Shown here piece after piece: positions 2,190 through 45,025 of a stretch of 64,000 nt of DNA. Positions within the stretch are counted from its first letter, which is position 1; each line of letters starts with the position of its first letter. The DNA is from Microlunatus speluncae. GTDB taxonomy: Bacteria > Actinomycetota > Actinomycetes > Propionibacteriales > Propionibacteriaceae. The position numbers and the translations under genes are program-made. Location of the stretch: NCBI RefSeq assembly GCF_009299835.1, contig NZ_VKCZ01000020.1, forward strand, positions 558,001 through 622,000, in the 5' to 3' direction. A model generated the notes under the pieces. The model saw only the letters and a program-made list of their open reading frames with translations. It was not told the DNA's origin and made no database searches.

Positions 2190-2201
2190 GTAATCGATTT
2201 C
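2190..2201. promoter_or_regulatory. LacI-family operator upstream of the sugar permease operon
   Basis: GTAATCGATTTC has central CG and 5 of 6 palindromic pairs. It resembles the operator at 224-235 and lies 46 bases upstream of the TTG start at 2143. Together the two sites suggest one LacI-type regulator controls both transcription units of this importer. Confidence 0.6.
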
Positions 2202-2290
2202 ACAACTGGGTTCGGCCGTTGCCGGGGCAACCGGTCCGGTCACGATTCGGCCACCCTAAGAGCGGCTCAGGACCGCCTCAGGGCGACGGC

Positions 2291-3073: not shown

Positions 3074-3145
3074 CCGCCCGACCCTACGAGACCTCGGCCC
3101 AGCCCCAGAATCACCCCCCACCCATCGGGACGCCATCCAAATCCC

Positions 3146-3208
3146 GCCGACCCGTCACCAATGCACCGGTTTTGGCGGCGTGTCGGTGCACAAGTGACGT
3201 CTCGATGA
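3146..3208. repeat. CCGACCCGTCAC-type palindromic repeat, copy 1
   Basis: This 63-base element is almost identical to the reverse complement of 53624-53688, with only a few differences. It folds on itself: GTCAC pairs with GTGAC and GCACCG with CGGTGC around a loop. Here it lies between two divergent genes, which is not a terminator position. Confidence 0.75.
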
Positions 3209-3273
3209 GACCGGGCGGGGTGCGGGAGAAATCTGATCGCGTCCGGCCAGCGGGAGATCTAGGGTTCATCCTC

Positions 3274-4191
3274 GTGGGAGATCCAGCGCAGTCCGTACGC
3301 GAGCCTGAGCCGACGCCGCAACTGACTGCGGCCGAGATCGGGAAGCTGGCTGAGCGTGCCCTCGGCACGACGGTCGACGCGTTGACGCCGCAGGCGGGCT
3401 CGGTCGGCAACCAGAACTTCCGGCTCGACACCGGGCGGGGCCGGTTCGCGCTGAAACTGGCCGCGGACAGCGAGCTGGCCGCGGAGCGCTGGGGCCTGGA
3501 ACGCGCGGCCGAGGTCGCGGTGCCGGTGCCGCGGGTGGCCGCCGCCGGGCCGCTGCCCGGTGACCGGGGCTTCTTGATCACCGAGTGGCTGGTCGGCCGA
3601 CCGGCCGACCCGGCGACGGACCGGGCGGCGCTGGTCGAGGCGGGCCGGGCGCTGCGCCGACTTCATCAGGTCACCGGGCCGGGCCATTGGCGGGTCGAGG
3701 TGGTGTCGGGGACGACTCGAGGGAGCCACGATTCCTGGGCCGGAGTGATCGATTCCATCCTGGCCGGCACGGACGATCTGGTCCGGCACGACGTGATCAC
3801 CGCGTCCGTCGCGGAGCGGCTTCGGTCGGCGGTTGCCGATCACCGCGACGCGATCGCGTATCCGGGCGAGGGCGTCCTGCTGCACTGCGATCTGAAGCCC
3901 GCGCACCTGTTCGTCGCCGACGGGCGGCTGGTCGCGATCATCGACTGGGGCGACACCGCCTACGGCGATCCGCGCTGGGACCTGGCCCGGCTGTCCCATT
4001 CCGGCGACGCGCTCTTCGCTCCCGTGCTCGAGGGGTACGGGCTGGTGCTCGACGCCGACCTGGCCCGCACCCTCGCGTGCTACCGGGCGATCCTGCGCCT
4101 CGACGCCCTGCACTACGAACTGATGGCGGGCGGGGACTGGTTCGACGTCTATCGGGCCACGCTCGACGAGTGGCTCGCTTCGTTGTCCTGA
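3274..4191 (+). CDS. Aminoglycoside phosphotransferase (APH)-fold kinase
   Basis: About 305 residues of the APH/choline-kinase fold. The catalytic loop is HCDLKPAHLF (about residue 201) and the metal-binding segment IDWGDTAYGDP (about 222). The closest match to the pattern is small-molecule kinases that phosphorylate a hydroxyl group with ATP or GTP; antibiotic resistance should not be assumed. I choose GTG 3274. Starting at 3172 or 3205 would place the coding start inside the dispersed palindromic repeat at 3146-3208. It lies 27 bases before the S51 peptidase and may share its transcript. Confidence 0.82.
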   Translation: MGDPAQSVREPEPTPQLTAAEIGKLAERALGTTVDALTPQAGSVGNQNFRLDTGRGRFALKLAADSELAAERWGLERAAEVAVPVPRVAAAGPLPGDRGFLITEWLVGRPADPATDRAALVEAGRALRRLHQVTGPGHWRVEVVSGTTRGSHDSWAGVIDSILAGTDDLVRHDVITASVAERLRSAVADHRDAIAYPGEGVLLHCDLKPAHLFVADGRLVAIIDWGDTAYGDPRWDLARLSHSGDALFAPVLEGYGLVLDADLARTLACYRAILRLDALHYELMAGGDWFDVYRATLDEWLASLS

Positions 4192-29989: not shown

Positions 29990-30188
29990 TCGGCACTCCT
30001 CGGGGGCCTGATCCGGTGATCCGCGGCGCACCCGAACTGCGGCCCCTGGGCCCGCCGATAGAGCACACCTTACTGGTCAGTAACCCCGGCGCCCGGACGC
30101 CGGTGGCGTTCCGGGCTGCAACCGGGCAACGCTAGAGTCCGAGTCGCCGTTCGCTCATCGATCGGCGACCTGACTGGGAAGGATGCGC

Positions 30189-31178
30189 GTGCCGATGGGA
30201 AAGCCCAATCCGCTGCTGGTGATCCTGACCGCGATCTGGCGGCTCGGCATCGCGATCTGCGCCTTCAGCGGCTGGTGGTTGTACGGCCACGATCCGGCCG
30301 AGCTGCCGTTCCTGACCCAGAGCGGCAACCTGCTGGTGTCGATCGTCTACCTCGGCCTGGCCGTCTACTACCCGGTGGCCAGCCTGGCCACCGGCAAGGA
30401 GCCGGGATCGGGCAAGCTCCGCGGCGCGATGACGCTGCTGATGATCGTGGTCGGCTGCACCTATGTGGGCGTGATGGGCGGCGACATCGGGGAGCCGAAA
30501 GATCTGCTCACCCACGTCGTGACGCCGTGGCTGGTCTTCCTCGACTGGTGCTTCGTCGGCCGCAGCCAGAACCGGACCCGCTGGTGGCACCCGTTCCTCT
30601 GGATCATCGTCCCGGGCGTGTGGCTGATCGGCTATTCGATCACCGGCGGCTACCGCTGGGTGCGCGGCAGCTCCCCGCTCTACGGTTTCGCCGATCCGCG
30701 GGACGGCGACTACGGCGCGATCCTGATCGGGCTGGTGTTCGCGACGATCGCCGGCGGCTATCTGCTGTACGGCATCGGCAAGCTCAAGGGCGTGCTGTCC
30801 CGGGCGGTCCGCGGCGAATCGGCCCCGACCCGCGGGCCGCAACCCGGCCCGCGGCCCTACCCGGGCCAGCAACCGCCGCCGGGCCGGCCGCCCTACGGGC
30901 AGCAGCCGCCGCACCAGCAGCCGCCGTTCCACCCGCAGGCGCCGCAGTACCAACCGCAGTCGCAGTATCAACCGCATTCGCAGTACCCGGCCCAGCCGCA
31001 GCCGTACCCGCCGCAGCAGTATCCGCCCCAGCCTCAGCCGCAGTTCCCGCCGCAACCGGCGCCCCCGCCGTACCCGCCGCAACAGTCGCCCCATCCCCAG
31101 CAGCCGCCGAACCAGCCGGCGCCGTACCCCCAGCAGGGCCACCCGACGCAGCCACCGCCCCCGCCGCAGCGGTGGTGA
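30189..31178 (+). CDS. Pr6Pr-family membrane protein with Pro/Gln-rich tail
   Basis: 329 residues. Six hydrophobic segments occupy about residues 8-210 and include the family-type HVVTPWLVFLDWCFV and WWHPFLWIIVPGVWLIGY segments. About 110 residues of PxYPPQQ-like, low-complexity cytoplasmic or surface tail follow. Start choice: GGGAAGG lies 6 bases before GTG 30189, and the ATG at 30183 is too close to it. ATG 30195 is also possible. Function unknown. Confidence 0.78.
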   Translation: MPMGKPNPLLVILTAIWRLGIAICAFSGWWLYGHDPAELPFLTQSGNLLVSIVYLGLAVYYPVASLATGKEPGSGKLRGAMTLLMIVVGCTYVGVMGGDIGEPKDLLTHVVTPWLVFLDWCFVGRSQNRTRWWHPFLWIIVPGVWLIGYSITGGYRWVRGSSPLYGFADPRDGDYGAILIGLVFATIAGGYLLYGIGKLKGVLSRAVRGESAPTRGPQPGPRPYPGQQPPPGRPPYGQQPPHQQPPFHPQAPQYQPQSQYQPHSQYPAQPQPYPPQQYPPQPQPQFPPQPAPPPYPPQQSPHPQQPPNQPAPYPQQGHPTQPPPPPQRW

Positions 31179-31302
31179 AGCCCGGCCCGATCTGGGGCGC
31201 CGCTACGGCCGGGTAACAAAGTTCCAGGTTGGCCGTGGAGTGGGCCGAATCGTGGCATGATCCGACTCACCCGTGACAAGGACGCCGACCGGGAGGACCA
31301 CG

Positions 31303-32970
31303 ATGGCGCTCAGCCTCCGCCCCACGATCAAGACCTCATTGGCGGCACTCGCCGCTGCCGCGCTGCTGTTGACCGGCTGCGGCGGGGGAGGCGGCAACCA
31401 GGGCGGCGGGCAGGATCCGGCCGAGCCGAAAGTGGTCCGGCTGGCGCTGACCCAGGACGTCGACACCCTGCTGCCGATGGACTCCAACGTGGGCGACAAC
31501 ATCGCCGTGCTGGACGTGATCTACTCCGGACTGGTCCGCTACAAGCCGGACACGACCGAGCCGTACAACTATCTCGCCGCCGACATCGCCTCCGATGATC
31601 AGACGGTCTGGACGATCAAGATCAAGGAAGGCTTCACCTTCCAGAACGGCGAACCGGTGGACGCGGCCGCCTTCGCCCGGGCCTGGAACTACGCGGCGTA
31701 CGGCCCCAACGCGGTCTCCAACAACTACTTCTTCGAGCGGTTCAAGGGCTACGAGGAGATGCAGGGCGAGTACGAGGAGGACGACGAGGGCAAGGTCACC
31801 GTCACCAAGGAGCCGTCGGCCAAGGAGCTGTCCGGCGTCGAGGTGGTCGACCCGCTCACCCTCAAGGTCACCCTCAACGGCCCGTTCGTCGGCTTCTCCA
31901 CCATGCTCGGCTACACCGGCTTCTTCCCGGTCGCCGAGGCCTGCATCGCCGACGTCAAAGCGTGCGCGGTCAAGCCGATCGGCAATGGGCCGTTCCAGGT
32001 CGAGAAGTGGGACCAGGGCGTCAGCCTGGCGGCCGACAAGTGGGCCGACTACAAGGGTGAGGAGACGCCGAACTACGACCGGATCGAGTGGACCGAATAC
32101 TCCGGCTCCTCGTCCTGGCCCGACTTCCAGGCCGGCGACCTGGACACCGGCGCTCCGCCGCCGGCGGAGTGGCAGAAGGCCAACAACGACCCGGACCTCA
32201 CCGCGCGCAAGGTGGAGCGGCCGGGCGCCGGGCTGACCTACCTCGGATTCCCGCTGTACAAGGGATCCCCGTGGGACAACATCGAGTTCCGCAAGGCGAT
32301 CTCGATGGCGATCGACCGGAAGTCGATCATCGAGCAGGTGCTGCCCGGTCAGGCCGTGCCGGCCGACAGTTGGGTGGTGCCGGGCGGTGTGCCCGGCGGC
32401 GCGGCCGGCACCTGCGAGTGGTGCAAGTTCGACCCCGAGGCGGCGAAGGCGGCGCTGGCCAAGGCCGGCGGCTGGCCGGCGGGCAAGACGCTGACCATCT
32501 CGCTCGGCCAGGACGACACCCAGGAGCAGTACTTCCGGGCCATCGGTGATCAGATCAAGCTCAATCTCGGCATCCCGTACGAGCTCGACCCGACGCCGGA
32601 CTTCTTCTCCCGCCGCTCGGCCCGCAACTTCGAGGGAGCCTTCCGTAACAATTGGTTCCCCGATTACCCGCTGAACGAGAACTACCTGGCTCCGGTGTAC
32701 GCCAGCGGTGACGCCGAGAAGGGCAACACCAACTTCGGCTACTACAACGCCGACTTCGAGAAGTTGATCTCCGAGGGTGATCAGGCGGCGGACATCCCGC
32801 AGGCCGTGGCCAAGTATGCCGAGGCGGAGAAGGTGCTGGCCGGGGACTTCCCGACGGTCCCGCTGAGCTTCGCGCTGGCGGTCACCTTCCACAGCGACCG
32901 GGTCGACAACGTGGTGATCGATCCGTTCAGCGGATCGACCAAGCTGCGGCTGCTCAACTACGTCGGCTGA
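31303..32970 (+). CDS. Dipeptide/oligopeptide ABC transporter binding lipoprotein
   Basis: 555 residues of the SBP family 5 (DppA/OppA). The signal peptide has lipobox LLTGC with cysteine 26. The mature protein starts with KVVRLALTQDVDTLLPMDSN and later holds the conserved FRKAISMAIDRKSI. It is the extracellular receptor of the importer encoded next. ATG 31303 follows GGGAGG. The substrate may be a peptide, but SBP5 proteins also carry nickel, glycosides or antibiotics. Confidence 0.92.
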   Translation: MALSLRPTIKTSLAALAAAALLLTGCGGGGGNQGGGQDPAEPKVVRLALTQDVDTLLPMDSNVGDNIAVLDVIYSGLVRYKPDTTEPYNYLAADIASDDQTVWTIKIKEGFTFQNGEPVDAAAFARAWNYAAYGPNAVSNNYFFERFKGYEEMQGEYEEDDEGKVTVTKEPSAKELSGVEVVDPLTLKVTLNGPFVGFSTMLGYTGFFPVAEACIADVKACAVKPIGNGPFQVEKWDQGVSLAADKWADYKGEETPNYDRIEWTEYSGSSSWPDFQAGDLDTGAPPPAEWQKANNDPDLTARKVERPGAGLTYLGFPLYKGSPWDNIEFRKAISMAIDRKSIIEQVLPGQAVPADSWVVPGGVPGGAAGTCEWCKFDPEAAKAALAKAGGWPAGKTLTISLGQDDTQEQYFRAIGDQIKLNLGIPYELDPTPDFFSRRSARNFEGAFRNNWFPDYPLNENYLAPVYASGDAEKGNTNFGYYNADFEKLISEGDQAADIPQAVAKYAEAEKVLAGDFPTVPLSFALAVTFHSDRVDNVVIDPFSGSTKLRLLNYVG

Positions 32971-33008
32971 GCTGACGGCTCGGTTGATCACCGGGAAGCG
33001 GCAGAGGC

Positions 33009-34013
33009 TTGGGTAGCTACATCGTCCGGCGCGTGCTGCAGGGCATCGGCTCCTTGATCGGAGTGATGCTCCTGCTGCATCTGCTGATGACTGCGGCGAT
33101 CCAGCTGAACGGCAATCCGGCGCTGGCGTTCTTCGGCGACCGGGTGCCGTCCAAGGCCCAGCTGGCGGCGGTGCAGGAGCGGTTCGGGCTGGCCGACCCG
33201 TGCTACGAACAGCTCGGCAATCCCTGCCTCGGGCCGTTCGTGCACCGGATGGGCGGCTACCTGACCGGCGACTTCGGCACCAACCACCGCGGCCGGGAAG
33301 TGCTCGACATCGTCGCCACGGCGGCGCCGAACACGCTCCGGCTGTTCCTGGTCGTCACGATCACCTGGATGCTCGTCGGGATGCTGCTCGGCTCGGTCGC
33401 GGCCCGGTATCGCGGCCGGGCCCCCGATCACTCGATCCGGTTCATCAGCATCCTGATCGACGCCTTCCCGGTGTTCGTCACGTTGCTGGTCTACAAGTTC
33501 ATCGTGACCGTGCCGGTGAGCAACTGGATGAGCGCGCAGTTCGGCGACGAGAGCATTCCGGCGCTGCTGTTCAAGCCGTCCTTCTCGGCTGATCATCCGT
33601 GGGCGACGGTGATCATCCCCGGACTGCTGCTCGGGCTGGTCGGGGCGGCACCGTTCCTCCGGCTGGTCCGGGCCAGCCAGCTGGAGAACTACAACGCCGA
33701 TCATGTCCGGACCGCCCGGTCGAAGGGGCTCGGCGACGGCCATGTGACCGCGTACCACATCGTCCGCAACTCCTCGATCCCGGTGATCACGGCGGTCGGT
33801 TTCGTCTTCGCCGAGGCGTTGGCCGGGGCGGTGATCACCGAAGGCATGATGAACATCTACGGCATGGGCGGCGTGCTCTGGGACGCGGTCCGCGACAGCG
33901 AGGTGTCGGTGGTGATCGGCGTCGTCTCCATCCTGGCCGTGGTCACCATCGTGGTGATGTTCGTCGTCGATCTTCTGTACGCCGCCCTCGATCCCCGGAT
34001 CCGCTATGACTGA
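33009..34013 (+). CDS. Peptide ABC transporter permease, DppB type
   Basis: 334 residues. It has the N-terminal YIVRRVLQGIGSLIGVM, a long extracellular insertion (about 35-110) typical of DppB/OppB, and the EAA-type loop YNADHVRTARSKGLGDGHV. It starts at TTG 33009, 38 bases after the binding-protein gene, and forms the channel with the DppC-type protein. Confidence 0.92.
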   Translation: MGSYIVRRVLQGIGSLIGVMLLLHLLMTAAIQLNGNPALAFFGDRVPSKAQLAAVQERFGLADPCYEQLGNPCLGPFVHRMGGYLTGDFGTNHRGREVLDIVATAAPNTLRLFLVVTITWMLVGMLLGSVAARYRGRAPDHSIRFISILIDAFPVFVTLLVYKFIVTVPVSNWMSAQFGDESIPALLFKPSFSADHPWATVIIPGLLLGLVGAAPFLRLVRASQLENYNADHVRTARSKGLGDGHVTAYHIVRNSSIPVITAVGFVFAEALAGAVITEGMMNIYGMGGVLWDAVRDSEVSVVIGVVSILAVVTIVVMFVVDLLYAALDPRIRYD

Positions 34014-34025
34014 GGGGGTTTCGCC

Positions 34026-34964
34026 ATGACCGATCTGGCAACGTCCGCGGCGATCGCGGCCGAGACCGGCGGCCCGGCGCGGCCCGGGCGATCACTGTGG
34101 TCGGATGCGTTCCGCCGGATGCGGCGCCGGCCGGATGTGATCATCGCGACCGTGGTCGGGTTCTTCTTCCTCCTCGTGGCGATCTTCCCGACCCTGTTCA
34201 CCGCGACCGATCCGCAGCGCTGCGACATCTCGAAGTCGCGGGTGTTGCCGCAGGGGTTCGGCGCCGAGTATCCGTTCGGCACCAACCTGCACGGCTGCGA
34301 CGTGCTGGCCCAGCTGGTGCACGGAGCGCGGCCGTCGCTGCTGCTGGCGTTCACCGTGGTCGGTGCCTCGTTGATCATCGGGTTGTTGCTCGGCACCCTG
34401 TCCGGCTTCTATCTCGGCTTCGTCGATGCGGTGATCTCCAGGGTGCTGGAGATCTTCCTGGTGATCCCGTTCCTGCTGGCCGCATTGCTGCTGCTGTCGC
34501 TGTTCCGCAATGTCGATCTTGGTGGCGGGCAGGTGGCCTCGATCATCCAGCCGGCGATCGTGCTGACCGCGTTCGGCTGGATGGGTTACACCCGCTATGT
34601 CCGGGCCAGCGTGCTGGAGACCAAGAACCTCGACTACGTCACGGCCGCGCGATCACTCGGCGCCTCCGATCTGCGGCTGATGTTCTCCCACATCCTGCCG
34701 AACGCGATCGGGCCGGTGACCGCGCTGGTGCCGACCTCGATCGCCGGCGTGATCGCGACCGAGGCCGTGCTGGCGTTCCTCGGCATCGGCGTCCGGCCAC
34801 CCGCGGTCAGCTGGGGGATCATGATCTCCGACGGAGCCGAGTGGTTCACCGGCGGCTTCCCGCACCTGCTGCTGTTTCCGCTGGGCTGCCTGCTGGCCAC
34901 GATCCTCTCCTTCGTCGTCATCGGCGACAACCTCCGCGACGCCCTCGACCCGAAGCTGAGGTGA
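34026..34964 (+). CDS. Peptide ABC transporter permease, DppC type
   Basis: 312 residues. The N-terminal segment (WSDAFRRMRRRPDVIIATVV) is followed by the DppC/OppC domain with six membrane segments and the EAA loop LDYVTAARSLGASDLRLMFS. It begins 12 bases after the DppB-type gene, same operon. A nested inverted repeat follows it, before the ATPase gene. Confidence 0.92.
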   Translation: MTDLATSAAIAAETGGPARPGRSLWSDAFRRMRRRPDVIIATVVGFFFLLVAIFPTLFTATDPQRCDISKSRVLPQGFGAEYPFGTNLHGCDVLAQLVHGARPSLLLAFTVVGASLIIGLLLGTLSGFYLGFVDAVISRVLEIFLVIPFLLAALLLLSLFRNVDLGGGQVASIIQPAIVLTAFGWMGYTRYVRASVLETKNLDYVTAARSLGASDLRLMFSHILPNAIGPVTALVPTSIAGVIATEAVLAFLGIGVRPPAVSWGIMISDGAEWFTGGFPHLLLFPLGCLLATILSFVVIGDNLRDALDPKLR

Positions 34965-34987
34965 CCCGTGCACCCCCAGCACCACCA

Positions 34988-35055
34988 CAAACGCGGCAGT
35001 ACGGACGATCCGCGGCAGTTGCAACGGCCGCGGATGAGTGCAACTGCCGCGTTTG
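34988..35055. repeat. Nested inverted repeat inside the dpp operon
   Basis: Outer arms CAAACGCGGCAGT/ACTGCCGCGTTTG (13 bases, perfect) and inner arms ATCCGCGG/CCGCGGAT. It separates the DppC and DppD genes, so it may cause partial termination or RNA processing within the operon. Confidence 0.88.
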
Positions 35056-35073
35056 CGGGTGGAGAGGTGTGCC

Positions 35074-36069
35074 GTGGGCAGCGGTGAGGTGTTGCTGGAG
35101 GTGGATCGGCTGGCGGTCGAGTTCCGGACCGAGGACGGGTTGGTGCGGGCGGTCAACGGGGTGTCGTTCTCGGTCGAGGCGGGGCGGACGCTGGCGATCG
35201 TGGGTGAGTCGGGGAGTGGCAAGAGCGTCACCGCGCAGGCGGTGCTCGGGCTGCTGCAAACGCCGCCGGCCCGGATCGCCGGCGGCGAGATCAGGTTCCG
35301 CGGCACTGACCTGCTGGCGCTCAGCCGGCATGATCATCGGGCCATCTGCGGCGAACACATCGCGATGGTGTTCCAGGACGCGCTGGCCGCGCTGAACCCG
35401 GTCTACAGCGTCGGCTTCCAGCTGACCGAGGCACTGGTCGCCCGGCGCGGCATCTCCCGGCGCACCGCGCGGCGGCGGGCCGTCGAGCTGCTCGACCTGG
35501 TGCAGGTGCCGAACGCAGTCCAACGGGTGAAGGAGTATCCGCACCAGTTCTCCGGCGGGATGCGGCAGCGGGTGATGATCGCGATGGCGCTGGCCCTGGA
35601 GCCGGAGGTATTGATCGCCGACGAGCCGACCACCGCGCTCGACGTCACCGTGCAGGCGCAGATCATGCGGTTGCTGGCCGAGATCCAGGCCGAGCGGTCG
35701 ATGGGCCTGATCCTGATCACTCACGATCTTGGGGTGGTGGCCGACGTGGCCGACGAGATCACGGTGATGTACGCCGGCCGGGCGGTCGAGCAGGCCTCGG
35801 TCGAGGACCTGTTTGCGGCCCCGGCGCATCCGTACACGCAGGCGTTGTTGCGGTCCATCCCGCGGGTCGACCGGAAGGGTCAGAAGCTCGAGGTGATCGC
35901 CGGCCGGCCGCCCGAGCTGACCCGGATCCCGACCGGTTGCGCCTTCCATCCGCGTTGCCGCTTTGCCGCCGACGTCTGCCGCATCGACCCGGCACCGCCC
36001 ACCGAACCGGTCGGCGACGGCCGCCTCTCCGCCTGCCACTTCGCCGCTGACGTCCTGGCGGGACGCTGA
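35074..36069 (+). CDS. Peptide ABC transporter ATPase, DppD type
   Basis: 331 residues. All motifs are intact: Walker A GESGSGKS, signature FSGGMRQRV, Walker B LIADEPTTALD and H-switch THD. The C-terminus has the oligopeptide-ATPase cysteine cluster GCAFHPRCRFAADVC. No DppF partner follows, so the active pair may be a homodimer or use an ATPase from elsewhere. GTG 35074 follows GGAGAGG. Confidence 0.9.
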   Translation: MGSGEVLLEVDRLAVEFRTEDGLVRAVNGVSFSVEAGRTLAIVGESGSGKSVTAQAVLGLLQTPPARIAGGEIRFRGTDLLALSRHDHRAICGEHIAMVFQDALAALNPVYSVGFQLTEALVARRGISRRTARRRAVELLDLVQVPNAVQRVKEYPHQFSGGMRQRVMIAMALALEPEVLIADEPTTALDVTVQAQIMRLLAEIQAERSMGLILITHDLGVVADVADEITVMYAGRAVEQASVEDLFAAPAHPYTQALLRSIPRVDRKGQKLEVIAGRPPELTRIPTGCAFHPRCRFAADVCRIDPAPPTEPVGDGRLSACHFAADVLAGR

Positions 36070-36267
36070 GCGGTCCATGGGCGATAGCAGGCGGGGCGGG
36101 CGGAGTCCAGCCGACGGACCGTGCCGGTGGTACGGATCCTGAGCCACGCCGGGCTGGTTCCACTGATTGTCAAGCGGTCACCTCTAGCCTCGGATTCGTG
36201 GCTAAGTCTGCCCCCGTGGCCACAGAAAACTTCCCCGAACGGTTGGGCAGAGTAGTTGGTGATCGTT

Positions 36268-37650
36268 GTGATCGAGTTCGAATCGGTTAGTAGGCCGCCC
36301 AAGCGCGGCTCGGATCCGGTGACCGAGGTCACCTTCGCGGCCCACCAGGACCAGATCACCGTGCTCCTCGGCGAACCCGGCTCCGGGACCAGCACGGTCC
36401 TGCGCATGATCAATCGCCTGATCGAGCCGGTCGAGGGCCGGATCATGATCAACGGCAATCCGCTCAAGTCCCTGCGCCGGAAGGCGTTGCGCCGCACCCA
36501 GGGTTTCCTGCTCCGCGAGGGCGGGCTGTTTCCGCACCGGGACGCGGTCGACAACATCGCGATGGTGCCGCGGCTGAAGGAGCACGGCCGGGGCAAGGCC
36601 CTGGTCGAGGCGGGCGACCTGCTCCGCGCGGTCGGCCTGGACCGGGCCACCGGCCGGACGAGGCCGTCCCGGCTGACCGCCGACCAGCGGCAGCGCGTCT
36701 GCCTGGCCCGCGCCATCGCCGGCGAGCCGACCGCAGTCCTGCTGGACCATCCGTTCGGCGATCTGGATTCGGGTGACCGCGTCGCGATGCAGGGGCTGCT
36801 CCGCCGGTTGCACGCCGAGCGGTCCTTCACCGCGATCGTCGCCACCGACGACGTCGACGAGGCGCTCGCGCTGGCCGACCGGCTGGTCGTCTTCGCGGGC
36901 GGCCGGGTGATCGACTCCGGCCCGCCGGAGGCCGTGCTGGACGCCCAGAACCCGTTGGTCGCCGAGATCGTCGGGGCCGAGCGCGGCTACCGGGCGCTGG
37001 CGTACGCGACGACGATCGGACTGCCGCTGCAACGGGTCCCGGTGGTCCGCGACCCGGCCTCGGCCGATCCCGGCGCCGGCGCGACGCTGCTGGTCGACAA
37101 CGACGCCAAGCCGCTCGGCTGGGTCGATCCGGACCAGTCCGGTGCGGTGCTGCCGCTCGGTGACGTCTTCGATCCGGGCAGCGGCTCGCTGCAGCAAGCG
37201 CTGAACGCCTCGCTGACCTCGCCGGTCGGGCTGGCCGTCGCCGTCACCCGGGGCACCGGGCGCTACGCCGGAGTGCTCAGCGCGGCGGAGATCGTGGCCG
37301 CCGCCGTCGAGCAGCGCACCGCCGCCGTCCGGGCCGGGATCGAGTCCGCCGTCGTCGAGTCGGCCGCGGCCATCGACACCGAAGAGGTCGCCGCCGCGCC
37401 GCCGGAGCCGACCAGTCCGCGCTCGCCCGAGGTGCTGGCCGCCGACGCCGATCAGGACCCGGCCGACGAGACGGCCGAGGACACCGTCGTCACCCCGGCC
37501 GCGGACGTCGCCGAGGCCGACGCCAAGCCGGGGACCACCGTCGCGCGCCGGGCGCAGTCGGCCGTGGACAAGGTCCGCGATGGCAAGGACGACGAGCCGA
37601 AGACGGACACCGAGGACCGTGAGCCGGTTGCCGCCGGGGGCGGACGGTGA
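36268..37650 (+). CDS. OpuCA-like ABC ATPase with degenerate catalytic motifs
   Basis: About 460 residues. The fold follows the glycine betaine ATPase OpuCA/ProV (for example STVLRMINRLIEPVEGRI), but each catalytic site is altered. Walker A reads GEPGSGTST (lysine to Thr41), the Q-loop Gln is Arg83, the signature is LTADQ (136-140) in place of LSGGQ, Walker B ends LLDHP (glutamate to His161), and the H-switch His is Asp194. A CBS-like region follows (about 245-350), then an acidic, probably disordered tail of about 110 residues. It is the only ATPase of its operon and overlaps the permease gene (GTGA). I take GTG 36268; 36256 is possible. Confidence 0.85.
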   Translation: MIEFESVSRPPKRGSDPVTEVTFAAHQDQITVLLGEPGSGTSTVLRMINRLIEPVEGRIMINGNPLKSLRRKALRRTQGFLLREGGLFPHRDAVDNIAMVPRLKEHGRGKALVEAGDLLRAVGLDRATGRTRPSRLTADQRQRVCLARAIAGEPTAVLLDHPFGDLDSGDRVAMQGLLRRLHAERSFTAIVATDDVDEALALADRLVVFAGGRVIDSGPPEAVLDAQNPLVAEIVGAERGYRALAYATTIGLPLQRVPVVRDPASADPGAGATLLVDNDAKPLGWVDPDQSGAVLPLGDVFDPGSGSLQQALNASLTSPVGLAVAVTRGTGRYAGVLSAAEIVAAAVEQRTAAVRAGIESAVVESAAAIDTEEVAAAPPEPTSPRSPEVLAADADQDPADETAEDTVVTPAADVAEADAKPGTTVARRAQSAVDKVRDGKDDEPKTDTEDREPVAAGGGR

Positions 37651-38312
37651 ACTGGGATTGGGTGGTCCAGAACGTCGCCTATCTGGGCACCCTGATCGCC
37701 GGGCACGCCATCGTGCTCGGGTTGTCGCTGGCCGCCGGCGTGCTGATCGGCGTCCCGCTGGGCTATCTGCTGGCCAAGCTCCGGGTCGGCCCGGTGGTCG
37801 CTCCGGTGCTCGATCTGCTCTCGTACGCCTCGCCGTTCGGGCTGTTGCTGATCGCGCCGATCCTTCGCGGTACGGCGATCGACGACCGGGTCAACCTGGT
37901 GCTGGCCTTCGGCACCCTGGCCATCCTGCGGATCTGCCGGTCGGTGCTGGTCGCGCACCGGCGGAACCGACCGGCCGCTCCGTATGCTTACCTCAAGGCG
38001 GCCGGGCTCGGCGCCGGCACCCGCTTCCGGCTCGACTTCACCTACCTCGCGCCGCGGGTGCTCGGCACCATCGGCCGGGTCGCGGTCGCCACGGTGGTGC
38101 TGACCACCGTCGGCGGGGCCATCGTCTCGGCCCGATTCGGGCCGGGCGGTGAGCTGGGCAGCCTGATCTATCGCGGCCTGGACGCGCGTGATCTGACCCA
38201 GGCGGTCACCGGACTGGTGCTGGTCGCCGTGCTGGCGATCCTGGTCGACCTGATCTTCCGCGGCCTCCGGCGACTCGCCGCCGCGGAGCCGATCGCGGAG
38301 GTGGCAGCATGA
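37647..38312 (+). CDS. OpuCB-like osmoprotectant-type ABC permease 1
   Basis: 221 residues with about six membrane segments, related to the glycine betaine/choline permeases. The ATPase-docking EAA loop (AYLKAAGLGAGTRFRLDFTY) is poorly conserved, in keeping with the unusual ATPase. The GTG overlaps the ATPase stop, and the next gene's ATG overlaps this one's stop, so the four genes are tightly coupled. Confidence 0.82.
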   Translation: MNWDWVVQNVAYLGTLIAGHAIVLGLSLAAGVLIGVPLGYLLAKLRVGPVVAPVLDLLSYASPFGLLLIAPILRGTAIDDRVNLVLAFGTLAILRICRSVLVAHRRNRPAAPYAYLKAAGLGAGTRFRLDFTYLAPRVLGTIGRVAVATVVLTTVGGAIVSARFGPGGELGSLIYRGLDARDLTQAVTGLVLVAVLAILVDLIFRGLRRLAAAEPIAEVAA

Positions 38313-38950
38313 ATCTCACCGGATACCTGTTCGACCCGGCCAACTGGACCTGGACCAGCACCCTGGTCAACGCCCTCGGCGTGCACGCTCTGGCCAGCCT
38401 GGCCCTGCTCGTCGCCGGAGGGCTGCTCGGTCTCGCTCTCGGTTGCCTGTTCGGGGCGTTCCGCGGCAGCCGGCCGGTGCTCCGGGTGATCTCCTGGCTC
38501 GGCGCCACCGTGCCGGTGCTCGGTCTGCTCGGCGTCGGCGTGATCATCTTCGGCGGCGGACTGCCGGTGCTCGGCGCCTGCCTGCTGCTGTTGATCACCC
38601 TGGCCGTGGCCGGGACGACCGCCCGCGCCCTGCGCGCCACGGACCAGCCGGTGATCGAGTCCGGGCGCGCGATGGGACTGTCCCGGCTGGCGATCTTCGT
38701 CGGTTATCGGCTGCCGTTGCTGCTGCCGCGCCTGCTGCACACGCTGGCCCGGGTCGGCGCGGCGACCGTGACGATGCTCGCGGTGGCCGGGATCGTCGGC
38801 GCGCCGGGGCTCGGCGCAGTGATCAAGGTCGGCTTCGACGCCGGTTATCCGCAGGTGTTCGCCGGTGCGGTGCTGCTGATCGGCCTCGGCTGGCTGTTCT
38901 ACCTGATCTTCGCCGGACTGGGCCTGCTGGCCCGGCGACGCGTCGCCTGA
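38309..38950 (+). CDS. OpuCD-like osmoprotectant-type ABC permease 2
   Basis: 213 residues, six membrane segments. Its EAA loop (QPVIESGRAMGLSRLAIFVG) is closer to the family norm than that of permease 1, and GIVGAPGLGAVIKVGF matches the conserved final-helix region. It overlaps both neighbours by 1-4 bases. Confidence 0.86.
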   Translation: MNLTGYLFDPANWTWTSTLVNALGVHALASLALLVAGGLLGLALGCLFGAFRGSRPVLRVISWLGATVPVLGLLGVGVIIFGGGLPVLGACLLLLITLAVAGTTARALRATDQPVIESGRAMGLSRLAIFVGYRLPLLLPRLLHTLARVGAATVTMLAVAGIVGAPGLGAVIKVGFDAGYPQVFAGAVLLIGLGWLFYLIFAGLGLLARRRVA

Positions 38951-39861
38951 TGATGAAGACCCAACGCATCGTCCGGCCACTGGCCGCGCTGCTGCTGGTG
39001 TTGATCATGGCCGGCTGCAGCCTGTCCAGCGACCCGCTGCGCAGCAGCGGCCAGACCTCGGCCGCCCCCGATCTGGTGGTCGGAGCGCCCGAGACGGCCG
39101 AGGGGGCGGTGCTGGCCCAGCTGTACGCCGGTGCCCTGCAGACCAAGGGAATCACGGTCGGCATCGAGCCGGTCGGTGAACGGGTCGACTATCTGCAACA
39201 ACTGCGCGGCGGCACGATCGCGCTGGTCCCGGACCACACCGGCGCCCTGCTCACCGAGCTGAAGCCGGACCAGGCGGCCAGCACTGCGACCGAAGTCGAT
39301 GATCAACTGCCGGCGGCCGCCGGCGCGGACCTGACGGTGATCACTCCCGCCCCGGCCACCGCCCAGACGGTGTACGTGATCACGAAGGCGGTGTCCGACC
39401 AGCGCAAGATCACCACGCTGGACGAGCTCGCCGCGATCACCGCCGGCACCGTGCTCGGCGGGCCGGCCGGGCTGGAGCAGCAGAAGTACGGGCCGGCCGC
39501 GCTGACCGCGATCTACGGGATCACGTTCGCCTCGGTCAAGGCCTACCCCGACTCCACCGCCCTGGCCCGCGACCTCGGCACCGGCACCATCTCCGCCGCT
39601 GCCTTCGCCGCCAACGACCCGGTCCTGGCCGGCGACAGCTTCGTCCGCCTCGCCGACCCGGAGTCCATGGTGCTGCCGCAGAACATCACCGCCGTCGCCG
39701 GCCCAGCCCTCAAGGCCAACCCGACCGCCATCGCCGCCATCGAAGCCGTCCACGCCGCCCTGACCACCCAGGAACTCACCGTCCTGCAGAGCCAGGTCGG
39801 CAGCGGCACCCCCGTGGAACAGGTCGCCGCCGATTGGCTCAAGGCCAAATCCCTCGCCTAA
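38950..39861 (+). CDS. OpuCC-like substrate-binding lipoprotein
   Basis: 303 residues of the OpuAC (glycine betaine/choline) binding family. Lipobox MAGC with cysteine 23. The mature part includes VVGAPETAEGAVLAQLYAG and ALVPDHTGALL, where the family usually has an E/D-Y-T-G pattern. The start (ATGATG at 38950) overlaps the permease stop. It completes an ATPase-permease-permease-receptor operon. Confidence 0.87.
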   Translation: MMKTQRIVRPLAALLLVLIMAGCSLSSDPLRSSGQTSAAPDLVVGAPETAEGAVLAQLYAGALQTKGITVGIEPVGERVDYLQQLRGGTIALVPDHTGALLTELKPDQAASTATEVDDQLPAAAGADLTVITPAPATAQTVYVITKAVSDQRKITTLDELAAITAGTVLGGPAGLEQQKYGPAALTAIYGITFASVKAYPDSTALARDLGTGTISAAAFAANDPVLAGDSFVRLADPESMVLPQNITAVAGPALKANPTAIAAIEAVHAALTTQELTVLQSQVGSGTPVEQVAADWLKAKSLA

Positions 39862-39871
39862 CCCCCGTCGG

Positions 39872-40011
39872 GGTGTGGAGGTCGGGGGTGTTCGTTCCCT
39901 GAGCCTGTCGAAGGGCGCCGGTGGATGTTCCTTCGCTGGTTGGTGTGGAGGTCGGGGGTGTTCGTTCCCTGAGCCTGTCGAAGGGCGCCGGTCGATGCTC
40001 CCGCGCTGGAT
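39872..40011. repeat. 70-base tandem duplication containing the GAGCCTGTCGAAGGG repeat
   Basis: Units 39872-39941 and 39942-40011 begin GGTGTGGAGGTCGGGGGTGT and contain TTCGTTCCCTGAGCCTGTCG then AAGGGCGCCGGT. They differ at a few bases near the end. The region 39862-40154 has no gene. Confidence 0.9.
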
Positions 40012-40077
40012 GATGCGGAGCCGAGGCTCGTGTTCCTCCCATTGACCTCATCGCGGGGCCTGGGGTGAATCTGGTCT

Positions 40078-40106
40078 GCCCTTCGACAGGCTCAGGGAAC
40101 GAACAC
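40078..40106. repeat. Dispersed repeat, inverted copy
   Basis: GCCCTTCGACAGGCTCAGGG followed by AACGAACA is the reverse complement of the unit at 39893-39916. The two can pair over about 25 bases across the intergenic region. Confidence 0.85.
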
Positions 40107-40154
40107 CAGCCGGCCCAGGGCGCATCGACCGGAACGAACGGGCCGGCGGAAGGG

Positions 40155-41159
40155 TCAGCGGTTGACGGGGCGCTGGGCGTCCCAGGAGTAGTCGCGGTCG
40201 AACAGGAAGCGGCGTTCGGGGTCCGGGGTGAGGACGAGGTCCTGGTCGTCGCCGGTCAGCCTGACGGTCCCGTCCGGCGCGGGCGCCCAGCGCAGGGAGA
40301 GGGTCGTGGCCGGGTCGTCCGGCGCCCGGGTGTCGCCGCGCAGCGGCGGGTCGAGCTCGATCCGGACGGAGTCGGGTCCGGAGTCGCGAACGGTGCCGAT
40401 CAGCAGGTCGCCGTTGGCCAGCCGGATCGTCGCCCGGGCCTTGCCGCCGGCGATCCACTGGCCGAAGGCGACCTGTTGCCACCGGGTGTCCCGGGCCAGC
40501 TGCGCCGCCGGCTCGGCCCGATCCTCGGTGACCCGATAGACGCCGGCCAGCGGATGACCCTCGGTCGGCATCGGGAAGGACAGCCGGAACAGCACGCCGG
40601 AGGCGATGATCACGGCGATCGCCAGCACCGGGGTGATCACGTTGAGGACGGTGCCGACACGACCGGTGACGATGGTCGGGATCGGTCCCCGGGGAATGGC
40701 GCCGGAGCCGAACCCGGCCCGGAGAAACCGGCTCACGTACGGGATCGCAGCGACGGTGGCGCCGATCGCGAGGGCCAGTGACAGCTGCTTCACCGGCACG
40801 TCGTAGGCCTGGTTGAGCAGGAAGACGAATAACATGTCGAAGGCGGCGATCACGGCGCCGACCCCGGCGGTCCGGCGCCACAACAGGAGCGCGGCGGCGA
40901 GCACCTCGGCGACCCCGGACAGCACCTGGAACGGAACCGAATAGCCGACCATCCGCCAGAGCAGGCCCATCGGGCTCATCTCGCCGTAGTTGATCAAGGC
41001 GTCGCCGTAGTCGGCCCGGCCCATCTGAATCAGGAAGACCTTGGACCAGCCGTAGACCAGCAGATAGACGGCCAGGCCGAGCCGCAGCAGCAGGTGCGCC
41101 GACCAGGCGATCCGGACCGGCCAGCTCGGGGACGGACGTTCGGTCAGCTCAGAAGTCAC
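40155..41159 (-). CDS. DoxX-like membrane protein with C-terminal extracellular domain
   Basis: About 334 residues. Four to five membrane segments in the first 190 residues (LLRLGLAVYLLVYGWSKVFL and QVLSGVAEVLAAALLLWRR) fit the DoxX/DoxD-like family. A soluble domain of about 130 residues follows, rich in beta strands. GTG 41159 lies behind AGGATCGG. Function unknown; DoxX-like proteins are linked to thiol or oxidative stress. Confidence 0.72.
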   Translation of the reverse strand: MTSELTERPSPSWPVRIAWSAHLLLRLGLAVYLLVYGWSKVFLIQMGRADYGDALINYGEMSPMGLLWRMVGYSVPFQVLSGVAEVLAAALLLWRRTAGVGAVIAAFDMLFVFLLNQAYDVPVKQLSLALAIGATVAAIPYVSRFLRAGFGSGAIPRGPIPTIVTGRVGTVLNVITPVLAIAVIIASGVLFRLSFPMPTEGHPLAGVYRVTEDRAEPAAQLARDTRWQQVAFGQWIAGGKARATIRLANGDLLIGTVRDSGPDSVRIELDPPLRGDTRAPDDPATTLSLRWAPAPDGTVRLTGDDQDLVLTPDPERRFLFDRDYSWDAQRPVNR

Positions 41160-41255
41160 GGGTCCGATCCTGGCAGCGGGTCCGGACCGCCGCATCTGAC
41201 CGGCGTCACAAGATCATGATGAATCCGTCATACCGGGTGTCGACGGAGCGTGAGC

Positions 41256-42215
41256 TCAGGTCGCGGGCGCGTCCGCGGCCGGTGGCGGCTCGGCGTCGCG
41301 TTCGTCCCGCTCGGCCCACTGCAGAAGTTGATCAAGGCTGTAGATCGTGTCGTCGAGATCGGCATGCAGGTCGCCCAGCTCGGCGTAGCGGGCCGGCATG
41401 GTGGCGATGGTGAAGTCCCGCGGATCGGCCTGGTCGATCTCGTCCCAGCGGACCGGGGCGGAGACGATGCCCTCCGGCGTGCCGCGGACCGAGTAGGCGC
41501 AGGCGACGGTGTGATCACGGGCGTTCTGGTTGTAGTCGACGAAGACCGAAGCCGGGTTGCGGTCCTTGCGCCACCAGGTCAAGTCGACCAGCCCGTCGGC
41601 CCGCCGCTCCACCTCGCGGGCGAACGCCCAGGCAGCCCGGCGAACATCCGCGAACCCGTACACCGGAGCGACCCGGACATAGATGTGGATCCCCTTGCTG
41701 CCGGACGTTTTCGGGAATCCGGTCGCGCCGAGCTCGGCCAGCACCTCGCGGGTGACACCGGCGACCCGCTGCACGTCGGCGTAGGTCGCCTCGGGGCCGG
41801 GATCAAGATCGATCCGCCACTCGTCGGGCTGCTCGACGTGTTCGCTGCGCGAGTTCCAGGGATGGAACTCGACCGTCGACATCTGCACCGCCCAGATCAC
41901 GTCGGCCGGATGATCAACACAGAGCTCGTACGCGTGCCGGCCGGACGGGAAGTCGACCCGGACCGTCTGCAACCAGGGCGGGGCGCCGTGTGGCACCCGC
42001 TTCTGGTGCACCTTGTCGCCGTCCACGCCGTCCGGGAACCGGTGCAGCATGCACGGCCGGTGGTGCAGCGCGTTGACGATGCCGTCGGAGACCGACAGGT
42101 AGTACTGCGCCAGGTCGAGTTTCGTCTCACCCCGGGCAGAGAAATAGATCCGGTCCGGGTTGCTGATCTTGACCACCCGGTCGCCGATCTCGAGCTCGAC
42201 GCGCTCCACCACCAT
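41256..42215 (-). CDS. LigD-type polymerase/primase domain protein
   Basis: 319 residues, a stand-alone archaeo-eukaryotic primase-like polymerase of the LigD PolDom family. It carries the catalytic IDLDPG (about 135), the TSGSKGIHIYV motif (about 165) and the HPWNSR segment. In bacteria this enzyme fills ends in non-homologous end joining, normally with Ku and ligase; neither is here. ATG 42215 is chosen because any earlier start (42278) is encoded by the palindrome repeat 42230-42283. Confidence 0.9.
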   Translation of the reverse strand: MVVERVELEIGDRVVKISNPDRIYFSARGETKLDLAQYYLSVSDGIVNALHHRPCMLHRFPDGVDGDKVHQKRVPHGAPPWLQTVRVDFPSGRHAYELCVDHPADVIWAVQMSTVEFHPWNSRSEHVEQPDEWRIDLDPGPEATYADVQRVAGVTREVLAELGATGFPKTSGSKGIHIYVRVAPVYGFADVRRAAWAFAREVERRADGLVDLTWWRKDRNPASVFVDYNQNARDHTVACAYSVRGTPEGIVSAPVRWDEIDQADPRDFTIATMPARYAELGDLHADLDDTIYSLDQLLQWAERDERDAEPPPAADAPAT

Positions 42216-42229
42216 GTCCCCGACCCTAA

Positions 42230-42283
42230 CCGAGTTGTCAGAACTGAGTTGTGCCCGGACACAACTCAGTTCTGACAACTCGG
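42230..42283. repeat. TTGTCAGA palindrome family, copy 6 (54 bases, perfect)
   Basis: Perfect 24-base arms with a 6-base loop: outer CCGAGTTGTCAGA, inner ACTGAGTTGTG. The arms are nearly those of copies 2 and 4. It lies between the MFS gene end and the polymerase gene start, both on the minus strand. Confidence 0.95.
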
Positions 42284-42299
42284 TGGGGATGGGGCGGAT

Positions 42300-43619
42300 T
42301 TACTCGCGGAGGCGAGTGGCCAGGCCGCGGCCGGCCAGCAGGATGGCAATGCAGCCGAGGACCGCGATCACCGAGGTGACTAGCCAGGGCAGCGCCGGCG
42401 TGGCGGCGAAGGTGATCGCGAAGGTGCCCGGAGCCGCGATGGTGGCCAGCGCGAACGAATACTGGAACACCGACAGATAGCTGGCCCGCGCGGCCGCCGG
42501 AGCGGCGTCCGAGGCCAGCCCCATCGACACCGGCGCGTGGGTCAGCTCGGCCACCGAGTAGATCAACACCGAGATGATCAAGCCGGGCACGATCAGCCAC
42601 AGCGGGGCCAGCCCGAGCGTGGCGGTGACCGCACCCCAGACGGCCCAGATCAGCCCGGCCACGACCAGCACCCGGATCCGGCGGAACCGTCGCGTTGCCC
42701 GCACCGCGATCCCCTGGCAGGTCGCGCCGAGGATCGTGTTCAACGCCAGCAGCGGCCCGATCAGCCAGGCCGGCGCGTCCAGCCCCTCGACCACGTACAG
42801 TGGCAGCCCGACGCCGAGAACCGTGCTGCAGAAGGCGAACAGGGTGTTCGCGGCGATCAGCAGCAGGTACGGGCGATCCCGGTGCACACCCCGCCGCGGT
42901 TGATCATCGGCCGGCGGCGGGACGATCTTCGGATGGCCCGGATCGCGGGCGAGCAGCACGGCCGCGGCCACGAAGCTGGCAGCGTTGACCGCCAACGCGA
43001 TCAGGTACGGCAGCGATCCCGACATGATCAACAACGCGCCCGCCAGCAACGCGCCGACGGCGAACCCGACGCCCTGGGTCATCCCGGACAGGGCAAACCA
43101 GGCGTCCTTGCCGGACCGGCGCTCGTTCTCCGGCTGGTCGTACGCGGCGGCCGCCTCGGCACCGTCGGCCGCGTCGGCGATCAACGAGAACACCGAGGAC
43201 CAGAAGGCTCGACCGCCGACCGCGTTGAGCAGGCAACAGGCGATCAGGATCGGCAGCGCCCGACCGGCCGGCACCGCGGCGAGCAGCAGGCCGGCGGTGC
43301 CGACCGCCTGCAGGAGCAGGGCGAAGATCACGATCGTCCGCGGTCCGACCCGGCCGGAGATCGCGGCCGACAGGGCGGGCACGGCGAGCGAAAGCACTCC
43401 CGACGCGGTCACCACGATGCCGGCGGTCGCCACCGGCAGCCCGGCAACGGTGATCAGATACAGCAGCACCAGCGGCCCGGCCAGGCCGGTGCCGATCGCG
43501 TCGACGCAGAGCGCGACGACGAGGGGGACGTGGCCCCGGATCGAGGGCAGACCCAGCAGCCGGGTCAGCGTGGGACGGGTCTTGGATCGAGAGTTTTCGG
43601 GCAGCGACGAACGGCGCAT
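42300..43619 (-). CDS. MFS transporter
   Basis: 439 residues with twelve membrane segments and a polar N-terminus. Signature stretches include GLAGPLVLLYLITVAGLPVA and SAELTHAP-like SVAELTHAPVSMGLASDA in the C-terminal half. Walk-through of helices is regular. ATG 43619 has GGAGG 8 bases upstream. Upstream there is no linked regulator. The substrate is unknown. Confidence 0.85.
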   Translation of the reverse strand: MRRSSLPENSRSKTRPTLTRLLGLPSIRGHVPLVVALCVDAIGTGLAGPLVLLYLITVAGLPVATAGIVVTASGVLSLAVPALSAAISGRVGPRTIVIFALLLQAVGTAGLLLAAVPAGRALPILIACCLLNAVGGRAFWSSVFSLIADAADGAEAAAAYDQPENERRSGKDAWFALSGMTQGVGFAVGALLAGALLIMSGSLPYLIALAVNAASFVAAAVLLARDPGHPKIVPPPADDQPRRGVHRDRPYLLLIAANTLFAFCSTVLGVGLPLYVVEGLDAPAWLIGPLLALNTILGATCQGIAVRATRRFRRIRVLVVAGLIWAVWGAVTATLGLAPLWLIVPGLIISVLIYSVAELTHAPVSMGLASDAAPAAARASYLSVFQYSFALATIAAPGTFAITFAATPALPWLVTSVIAVLGCIAILLAGRGLATRLRE

Positions 43620-44027
43620 GGAAGATGCCTCCGTGTCAGTGCCCACTCGTCCGCTTGTTGTCTCTGGACGCCTCCGGCGCCTGCGCGAAACGAGACCACT
43701 CCACCGGGATCGATCCCGACTACAGTTGGGGCTGTTTGCAAGGTTTTCCCGATCGTACGACAGGGTCCGCGGGCTGTCGACCGGCATGAGTGGGGAATCC
43801 GTCGCCGGGTAGTCCCGGCCGGATCCTCCCCAATCCCGCCGGGGATCCGGCCCGAAATCTCTTCGGCTCGTTGAGGATCCTCTTTGCCCTTCGACAGACT
43901 CAGGGACCGAGCAAGCGTCGGTGGGTCCCCTCGAAGGTGCGGGCAGGGTTTGGGGTTTCGTTCCCTGAGCCCGTCGAAGGGCAGGCCGGATGCGTCCGCC
44001 GCTCCTCAGACCCAGTCGCGGCGGTGA
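43620..44027. other. 408-base intergenic region with an inverted pair of dispersed repeats
   Basis: I see no gene. It contains the promoter of the MFS gene and two copies of the dispersed repeat in opposite orientation, at 43886-43907 (GCCCTTCGACAGACTCAGGG) and 43957-43982 (TTCGTTCCCTGAGCCCGTCG then AAGGGC), which could pair. Confidence 0.7.
43886..43982. repeat. Inverted pair of CCCTTCGACAGGCTCAGG repeats
   Basis: The left copy has one change (GACAGACTCAGGG), the right copy one (GAGCCCGTCGAAGGG). Their separation is about 49 bases. Confidence 0.8.
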
Positions 44028-44915
44028 TCAGCGACCGGCCAGCCAGCGTTCGGCGAGATGCCGGGCGTGGTGATGCATCCGGTCGGCGGCGACGGAATCG
44101 TCCTCGCGGAGGTGGACGGGCCAGACGAAGAGGACAGTCGCCAGCCCGGACGCGACGACCGTGCGGTCCAGTTCGACGGGGTCGAGGCCACGGAGCTCGG
44201 CGTACAACTCGATCATGTCGGCCAGCGGCACGGTCGCGCCCGAGGGCGTAGCCCGGCCGGCGGCGAAGGCCAGCTCGCCGCCGGGGCGGCCGATGCCGGT
44301 CGACTGCCAGTCGACCCAGATCAGTCCGTCGTCGTCGACCAGCAGATTGTCGGTGTGACAGTCACCGTGGTTGAAGCACCGCGGCACCGTGCGGGCGGCA
44401 CTGATCAGCGACTCGGGATCGTCGAAGAACGGTCGGAAGAGGTCGGCCTCACCGGGGCGTCGCCAGAAGCTCCGCCATCGCTCCGGATCGCTGCCGGGCA
44501 CGATCCCGTCCGCGCCGTGGCGCCATTGACCGCCGGGCGGCTTCGGCGTCTCGTGCAGCACGGCCAGATCCCGGGCGAGGGCCAGCCACAGCTCACGGGT
44601 CCACCGCTCCGCGGGCCTGATCGACGCGTGCGCCGAGAGCAGGATCGCCACGCACTCGTCGGATCGATGGTGGCCGAGAAGCTCGGGGGTCCGGACGCCG
44701 ACCTGGGCCCGCAACGTTCGGTAGAACGCGAGCTCGCGTTCGGCCGCGGTCCGATCCCAGCCGGACCGGGAGAAGGTGATCTTGACCACCGCCGGGGTCC
44801 CGTCGGCTCGGGTGGCGCGGCGCACCTGGGAACCCGACAGCCCGCCGTCAAGCCCGTCCGCGGCGATGGTGACGGCCAGTCGTGCGGCCACCTGCTCCAG
44901 CTCCGCCGCCGTCAT
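44028..44915 (-). CDS. Aminoglycoside phosphotransferase (APH)-fold kinase
   Basis: 295 residues. The catalytic loop HGDCHTDNLLVDDDG is at about residue 182, and the metal-binding WVDWQSTGIGRPGGELAF follows. It is a second APH-like kinase of the window, unrelated in detail to the one at 3274. The target is unknown. ATG 44915 follows AAGG. Divergent from the family-A polymerase. Confidence 0.85.
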   Translation of the reverse strand: MTAAELEQVAARLAVTIAADGLDGGLSGSQVRRATRADGTPAVVKITFSRSGWDRTAAERELAFYRTLRAQVGVRTPELLGHHRSDECVAILLSAHASIRPAERWTRELWLALARDLAVLHETPKPPGGQWRHGADGIVPGSDPERWRSFWRRPGEADLFRPFFDDPESLISAARTVPRCFNHGDCHTDNLLVDDDGLIWVDWQSTGIGRPGGELAFAAGRATPSGATVPLADMIELYAELRGLDPVELDRTVVASGLATVLFVWPVHLREDDSVAADRMHHHARHLAERWLAGR

Positions 44916-45025
44916 GCTCGGGACCTTAACCGGCCCGTCCGACACTTCGCCAGGGTTCGCCGCAGACCCACCGGGCGGCCGTCGATCCGGGACGGTGTCG
45001 GTGCCGCGCCGTAGAGTCGGCGACC

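Follow-up and report, generated by a model that had tools for sequence, protein, structure and literature searches.

An OpuC-like operon of Microlunatus speluncae retained with an ATPase that has lost nearly all its catalytic residues

Background

Can an ATP-binding cassette (ABC) importer be retained once its only ATPase has lost the residues of the ATP site, and if so, what might it do? This question is raised by an OpuC-like operon at 36256-39861 of a window of 64,000 nucleotides from Microlunatus speluncae (the whole stretch of DNA analysed here, positions 558,001 to 622,000 of contig NZ_VKCZ01000020.1), in which four intact, overlapping genes follow each other in the order ATPase, permease 1, permease 2 and receptor. 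A preliminary description of this DNA had called the operon intact and overlapping and its only ATPase changed at five motifs, and had proposed a repurposed system, such as a sensor or an importer energised by another ATPase. The four open frames bear out the operon, and the ATPase is the only one within it, but not in the genome (6.8 Mb, 21 contigs), where a paralogous OpuC operon, complete and intact, lies at G000:C19. We found that the operon has lost ATP-site residues at every motif and that all four of its proteins have diverged; substitution rates indicate that it now evolves under purifying selection and is not visibly decaying. Repurposing is thus supported, whereas a sensor is a role that we infer.

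Results

The ATPase was aligned with its orthologue from Microlunatus parietis DSM 22083, the nearest relative found as judged by the genes of the operon region, and with 23 other rows. Walker A reads GEPGSGTST in place of GPSGCGKTT, the Lys being replaced by Thr45 (residues are counted from the TTG start; the preliminary description had Thr41), the Q-loop Gln is Arg87, the signature LSGGQ has become LTADQ, the catalytic Glu of Walker B is gone (DE to D-H165), and the H-switch His is Asp198. All five changes reported earlier are therefore real, and to them is added the loss of the aromatic residue at what we take to be the A-loop (SRPP versus TKTY in the paralogue L021), the roles of the other motifs likewise being presumed. 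Two of the ten core catalytic positions are kept, namely the Asp that binds Mg and the Gln of the signature. The protein still belongs to the ABC ATPase family (PF00005, 78.2 bits, cut-off 25), and it scores 158.3 bits with the proV model TIGR01186 (cut-off 326.6), below which the intact paralogue also falls (274.3). No second gene for a nucleotide-binding domain (NBD) was found in the operon. Because both half-site contributions are lost, a complete ATP site is expected in no dimer that contains this subunit, whether it pairs with itself or with the intact paralogue, and hydrolysis-driven import by this pseudo-ATPase is therefore very unlikely.

The same losses are found in M. parietis, so that the five changes recur in a related genome and a sequencing or assembly error is ruled out. 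There the operon is syntenic, with the same Opp-type operon on one side and genes that we take to be DoxX-like, LigD-polymerase-like and MFS; all four frames are open in both species, the ATPases are 80% identical, and the same residue occupies 9 of the 10 core positions (Asp164 being kept), the signature reading LTAAQ in M. parietis. It had been suggested that orthologues with normal motifs in close relatives would make this copy a decaying gene. The Walker A Lys, Q-loop Gln, Glu and His are indeed kept in the best-matching ATPase of all 18 other Microlunatus genomes, but not in the nearest relative. As these 18 keep the residues, the catalytic loss is specific to this lineage.

Wider searches gave no third carrier in the family, order, class or phylum, although no search was aimed directly at dead copies that arose by convergence elsewhere among OpuC lineages. 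Permease 1 matched 83 of 198 genomes of the family, with only the two species exceeding 35% identity among the matches listed, and a two-row ATPase profile matched 12 of 391 genomes of the order, again with only these two above 350 bits. Only the window genome passed among 394 genomes of the class (permease 1) and 396 of the phylum (ATPase profile), M. parietis evidently lying outside both samples. A contig scan with two N-terminal peptide patterns returned M. parietis and two distant matches (L054 and L055), the latter of which has normal motifs.

As only two species carry the dead operon, the evidence on selection comes from one genome pair, the window organism and M. parietis. The ratio of nonsynonymous to synonymous substitution rates (dN/dS) of this pair is 0.30 for the ATPase, 0.19 for permease 1, 0.33 for permease 2 and 0.34 for the receptor; six neighbouring genes range over 0.14-0.40, and the intact paralogue operon of the same two genomes gives 0.37, 0.16, 0.23 and 0.35. 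Within the ATPase, constraint is inverted. Motif, identity and constraint counts were taken over a canonical set of 19 ATPase loci (16 rows each for permease 2 and the receptor), outside of which stand L006, a divergent locus on a short contig with an LTAGQ signature and the Lys, Gln, Glu and His kept, and three OpuC-like loci of lower similarity (L023, L024 and L025). In this set the C-terminal module (C-module) is less conserved than the NBD in 171 of 171 pairs, which are drawn from 19 shared sequences and so are not independent, by a mean of 21.6 points and by 2.1 in the closest case. In the dead pair, that is, the pseudo-ATPases of the two species, the order is reversed (C-module 93.8%, NBD 84.0% identity). 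Only 7 of 112 C-module residues are changed, versus 39 of 106 in the intact pair formed by the paralogues L021 (window genome) and L022 (M. parietis) (Fisher p 1.7e-8), and dN/dS is 0.11 versus 0.65 with bootstrap ranges apart, a contrast that overstates the effect because the C-module of the intact pair is unusually variable. Strong constraint on the C-module is the firm part of this sequence comparison.

Simple decay on the way to gene loss is compatible with the missing catalytic residues and with NBD changes that exceed those of the intact pair (39/243 versus 17/241 residues, p 0.0026), and every test is based on one species pair. Open frames in both species, dN/dS of 0.19-0.34 across the operon and 0.11 in the C-module, the inverted constraint, the losses shared with M. 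parietis and a leader identical at 84 of 84 bases all speak against it, and we consider decay highly improbable; repurposing, as first suggested, and retention under selection are what these observations favour.

The leader reaches from -75 to 9 nt inside the frame (TTG start) and is identical in the two species, between whose ATPase genes synonymous divergence is about 0.45 per site. It is the longest exact run between window positions 30001-46000 and the M. parietis locus, the next being 53. In this comparison, exact runs are 13 or absent in five other non-coding or start-proximal stretches and 16 ahead of the first Opp permease, and the region preceding the intact paralogue shares a single run, of 18; of seven other species pairs, six have runs of at most 35 or none, and the seventh one of 43, from -14 into the frame. 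Since runs of similar length occur elsewhere, namely 91 and 80 nt in L021/L022 (the former inside a frame that we take to be groEL-like, beside the paralogue operon of the window genome) and 81 nt in the closer pair L032/L033, the leader is notable for its non-coding place and not for length alone. In a DNA search the two genomes yielded a single match each, which rules out a genomic repeat, and the 18 remaining Microlunatus genomes yielded none; 177 genomes of the family gave one further match, of 31 bases (E 5e-4).

By eye, the leader holds a -10-like TAGCCT at 36185-36190, roughly where TAGGGT stands in 8 of the 10 canonical loci listed, and a sigma-70 promoter scan of it found none. An inverted repeat (TCTGCCC/GGGCAGA) lies at 36207-36213/36245-36251. 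The stretch folds better in the window than its shuffles (z -2.88), with an outer stem whose bases are in part absent from M. parietis, so that only inner hairpins are common to both species. A known riboswitch was rejected, the single Rfam match being at chance level (14.5 bits against a gathering score of 40, E 0.52). Possibly, the leader is a cis-regulatory RNA or an operator. Inspection by eye also showed a short upstream frame starting at GTG 36198, its third positions likewise within the identity.

Divergence extends to the other proteins. Canonical relatives are on average 41% identical to the ATPase, 27% to permease 1, 28% to permease 2 and 38% to the receptor, compared with 71, 68, 64 and 61% among the canonical proteins themselves. 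Permease 1 keeps 19 of 56 and permease 2 keeps 24 of 65 canonical-invariant columns, with docking-loop residues among the lost ones; permease 2 retains part of this loop, and the erosion reported earlier for permease 1 holds in part, as the Gly is kept and the core is also changed. Permease 2 matches BPD_transp_1 (40.7 bits, cut-off 26.4), while permease 1 has no match to this profile at E 0.001 and its M. parietis orthologue scores 16.7 bits. The receptor matches PF04069 (84.1 bits, cut-off 21.2). Losses common to both species comprise F and T of NFTE, E and Y of EYTGN, two D of DQDVY and one F of FFTTES, in segments that align with binding proteins of OpuBC-derived sensors and presumably line the ligand cleft.

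These changes bear on whether permeases and receptor still work as an importer powered by the intact OpuCA paralogue, in which case the pseudo-ATPase would be a passenger with a regulatory role. The paralogue is present in both species, the docking loop of permease 2 is kept in part, and sharing is known among type I importers with multitask ATPases (PMC7658222). However, most invariant permease positions are lost, a heterodimer with the pseudo-ATPase would be expected to have no complete ATP site, and the pseudo-ATPase is itself conserved. An importer energised by another ATPase, as initially proposed, thus becomes less likely given permeases and receptor so far from canonical, and we regard it as unlikely.

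A gated, ATP-independent channel or facilitator, passing solute down its gradient through receptor and permeases with the C-module as gate, would account for the retention of all four parts; the permease core is changed, yet permease 1 remains 86% identical with a dN/dS of 0.19. Flux, though, is a prediction from sequence, and type I permeases are not known to conduct unless driven by ATP, which leaves this an improbable though not negligible reading.

Both genomes carry the second OpuC operon, intact and tail-less, and the L021 ATPase is 64-73% identical to the ATPases of the other 18 genomes. In the receptor tree the four receptors of the two species are set apart from 16 others (98/91), which would fit a duplication in their common ancestor, plausible but not proven; in the ATPase tree the two operons do not come together, and no such duplication is seen. 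In that tree the dead pair has a stem of 3.3 changes per site with end branches of 0.12 and 0.08 (intact pair: stem 0.45, ends 0.08 and 0.25) and joins L006 (90/96), possibly as an intermediate or by long-branch attraction. L006 itself (1501-3426, G016) encodes a diverged OpuC ATPase with an LTAGQ signature and retained catalytic residues.

The window operon is likely the heir of the genus's OpuC locus, because of its LigD-polymerase-like neighbour, found near 4 of 14 canonical loci with long flanks and not within the flank of the other 10, and its acidic tail; this orthology lacks backing from the ATPase tree, where placement is unsure owing to the long branch. The tail (102 residues beyond residue 362, 25% Asp/Glu) had been listed as a peculiarity. 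It is present, yet 17 of 18 canonical Microlunatus loci carry one of 95-280 residues with 20-30% Asp/Glu (29 residues in the remaining one), so as a mark of repurposing it is ruled out, being usual at this locus in the genus.

Coexistence of both operons in the same two genomes, together with the grouping of their receptors (98/91), would also suit dead subunits that mix into the intact complex and dampen its activity. Mixed complexes look unlikely because the NBD is only 39% identical to that of the intact paralogue and the permeases average 27-28% to canonical ones, and the two operons stay apart in the ATPase tree; we hold such a modulator to be quite unlikely.

Discussion

Retention of the whole gene set leads us to favour a non-hydrolysing complex, and our tentative preference, somewhat short of even odds, is for an ATP-independent assembly of receptor, permeases and pseudo-ATPase that acts through the C-module as a sensor or regulatory unit. 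Presumably, the intact paralogue continues osmolyte import, while the old copy would have become a membrane complex operating without ATP hydrolysis. A ligand would bind to the receptor, whose signature segments are altered; the permeases may still dock on the pseudo-ATPase through the GGLFPHR segment after the Q-loop, of which 7 of 8 canonical-invariant positions are kept and which we take to face the permeases in the OpuC-type family; and the C-module, now the most constrained part, would provide the output, with synthesis of the complex set by the conserved leader. A sensor or regulator is thus the role we favour, followed by the gated facilitator. The fuller scenario, a type I importer converted after duplication, in which ligand occupancy is relayed to the dead ATPase, the C-module gives the output and the leader brings new RNA or DNA control, is possible but doubtful.

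Several observations weigh against the sensor or regulator. NBD dN/dS is not clearly different between the dead (0.245, range 0.16-0.37) and intact pairs (0.200, 0.11-0.35) despite the residue counts, because dS is also higher in the dead pair (0.45 versus 0.26), and present-day relaxation of the NBD is thus not clearly seen. The C-module of the intact pair is only 62% identical, where nine other canonical pairs with NBD identity of at least 88% have 74-90%. Loss at core catalytic positions exceeds that at other invariant NBD positions modestly (2/10 versus 67/120 kept, p 0.045) and not significantly when all motif positions are taken together (9/24 versus 60/106, p 0.11); the NBD has drifted as a whole. 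For the C-module, the Pfam families listed include no CBS match, and the PDB yields no clear one. Next to the operon, where the Opp-type operon and the DoxX-like, LigD-polymerase-like and MFS genes lie, no signalling partner was noticed, and only two species carry the dead operon. Finally, a sensor remains putative, with expression, assembly, ligand binding and signalling being predictions.

A rewired active site, in which the Glu/His pair has turned into His/Asp (165/198), Arg87 may substitute for the Walker A Lys and some nucleotide chemistry may survive, would draw on the hydroxyls kept by Ser46 and Thr141, on Asp164 and on the 9 of 10 core positions that agree between the species. Such agreement is general, however (53 of 61 changed invariant and 83 of 110 variable NBD positions), the A-loop aromatic and P-loop Lys are gone, and the signature differs between the species (LTADQ, LTAAQ). 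Structure predictions were too poor for use (predicted local distance difference test, pLDDT, 43 for the ATPase and 55 for permease 1), also as regards the geometry of the site. We consider surviving chemistry very unlikely.

Among known systems, the operon resembles the osmolyte importers OpuC, OpuA and ProU in its ATPase, permeases, OpuAC-family receptor, module after the NBD and acidic tail. OpuA tails vary in length, exceed 100 residues in some archaeal orthologues and tune ionic regulation in L. lactis (PMC2861598), and OpuA CBS domains bind cyclic di-AMP (PMC10710835); the C-module sits at the position of the CBS pair, the ProV model NF007480 spanning 27-356 of the intact paralogue. Unlike these importers, the window operon has no competent ATP site, strongly changed permeases and receptor segments, and constraint on C-module and leader. 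Similarly to Pdr5, whose degenerate site is changed at the Walker A Lys, Glu, His and signature (PMC7756269), and to RbsA/NupO, importers with an NBD half lacking the Walker A Lys and deviating signatures (PMC11466899), the catalytic motifs are altered. However, Pdr5-type exporters keep a second, canonical site and RbsA/NupO fuse two NBDs with one degenerate site, whereas the single NBD type of the window operon has lost both contributions and leaves no intact site. In MsmX-type sugar importers a working multitask ATPase is shared (PMC7658222); the window operon instead retains a dead ATPase, which is conserved. Thus, degenerate ABC sites in the literature compared adjoin a second site, but no competent one exists here, and an importer operon with a dead sole ATPase was not found among the papers listed in literature searches, which mostly excluded subscription journals. 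If our reading is true, the scaffold of an ABC importer can be of use even when no ATP is turned over, and the locus would offer a natural test of the way in which duplication releases a transporter to take on a new role, the intact paralogue of both genomes serving as a built-in control.

Operon features and surroundings

Features of the operon with their positions in the window
Feature	Position	Strand	Remarks
Leader, 84 nt	36181..36264	+	identical in both species; extends into ATPase start
Pseudo-ATPase, OpuCA/ProV type	36256..37650	+	464 aa from TTG; alternative GTG start 36268
C-terminal module of pseudo-ATPase	36985..37344	+	best-conserved protein part; position of OpuA/ProV tandem CBS module
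Acidic C-terminal tail of pseudo-ATPase	37345..37647	+	fast-evolving; dN/dS 0.58
Permease 1	37647..38312	+	86% between two species; mean 27% to canonical
Permease 2 (BPD_transp_1)	38309..38950	+	family profile match
Receptor (OpuAC family)	38950..39861	+	lipoprotein signal by eye; signature segments changed

The GTG start originally given for the ATPase (36268, + strand) matches the GTGATCGAG start in 6 of 12 relatives listed, but TTG 36256 is also possible. Upstream, an Opp/Dpp-type operon (presumably a binding protein and two permeases) with a single ATPase gene occupies 31273-36069; no second ATPase lies between it and the OpuC-like operon, and the order is equal in M. parietis (L026). In the latter, repeated GCAGCCGCGACCGTTCC-like units were seen by eye at 4020-4460 of L026, between the Opp ATPase gene and the leader, and not at the matching place in the window. 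Downstream of the receptor gene, 39890-40110 contains repeated GTTCCCTGAGCCTGTCGAAGGGCG units, two direct and one inverted, likewise recognised by eye.

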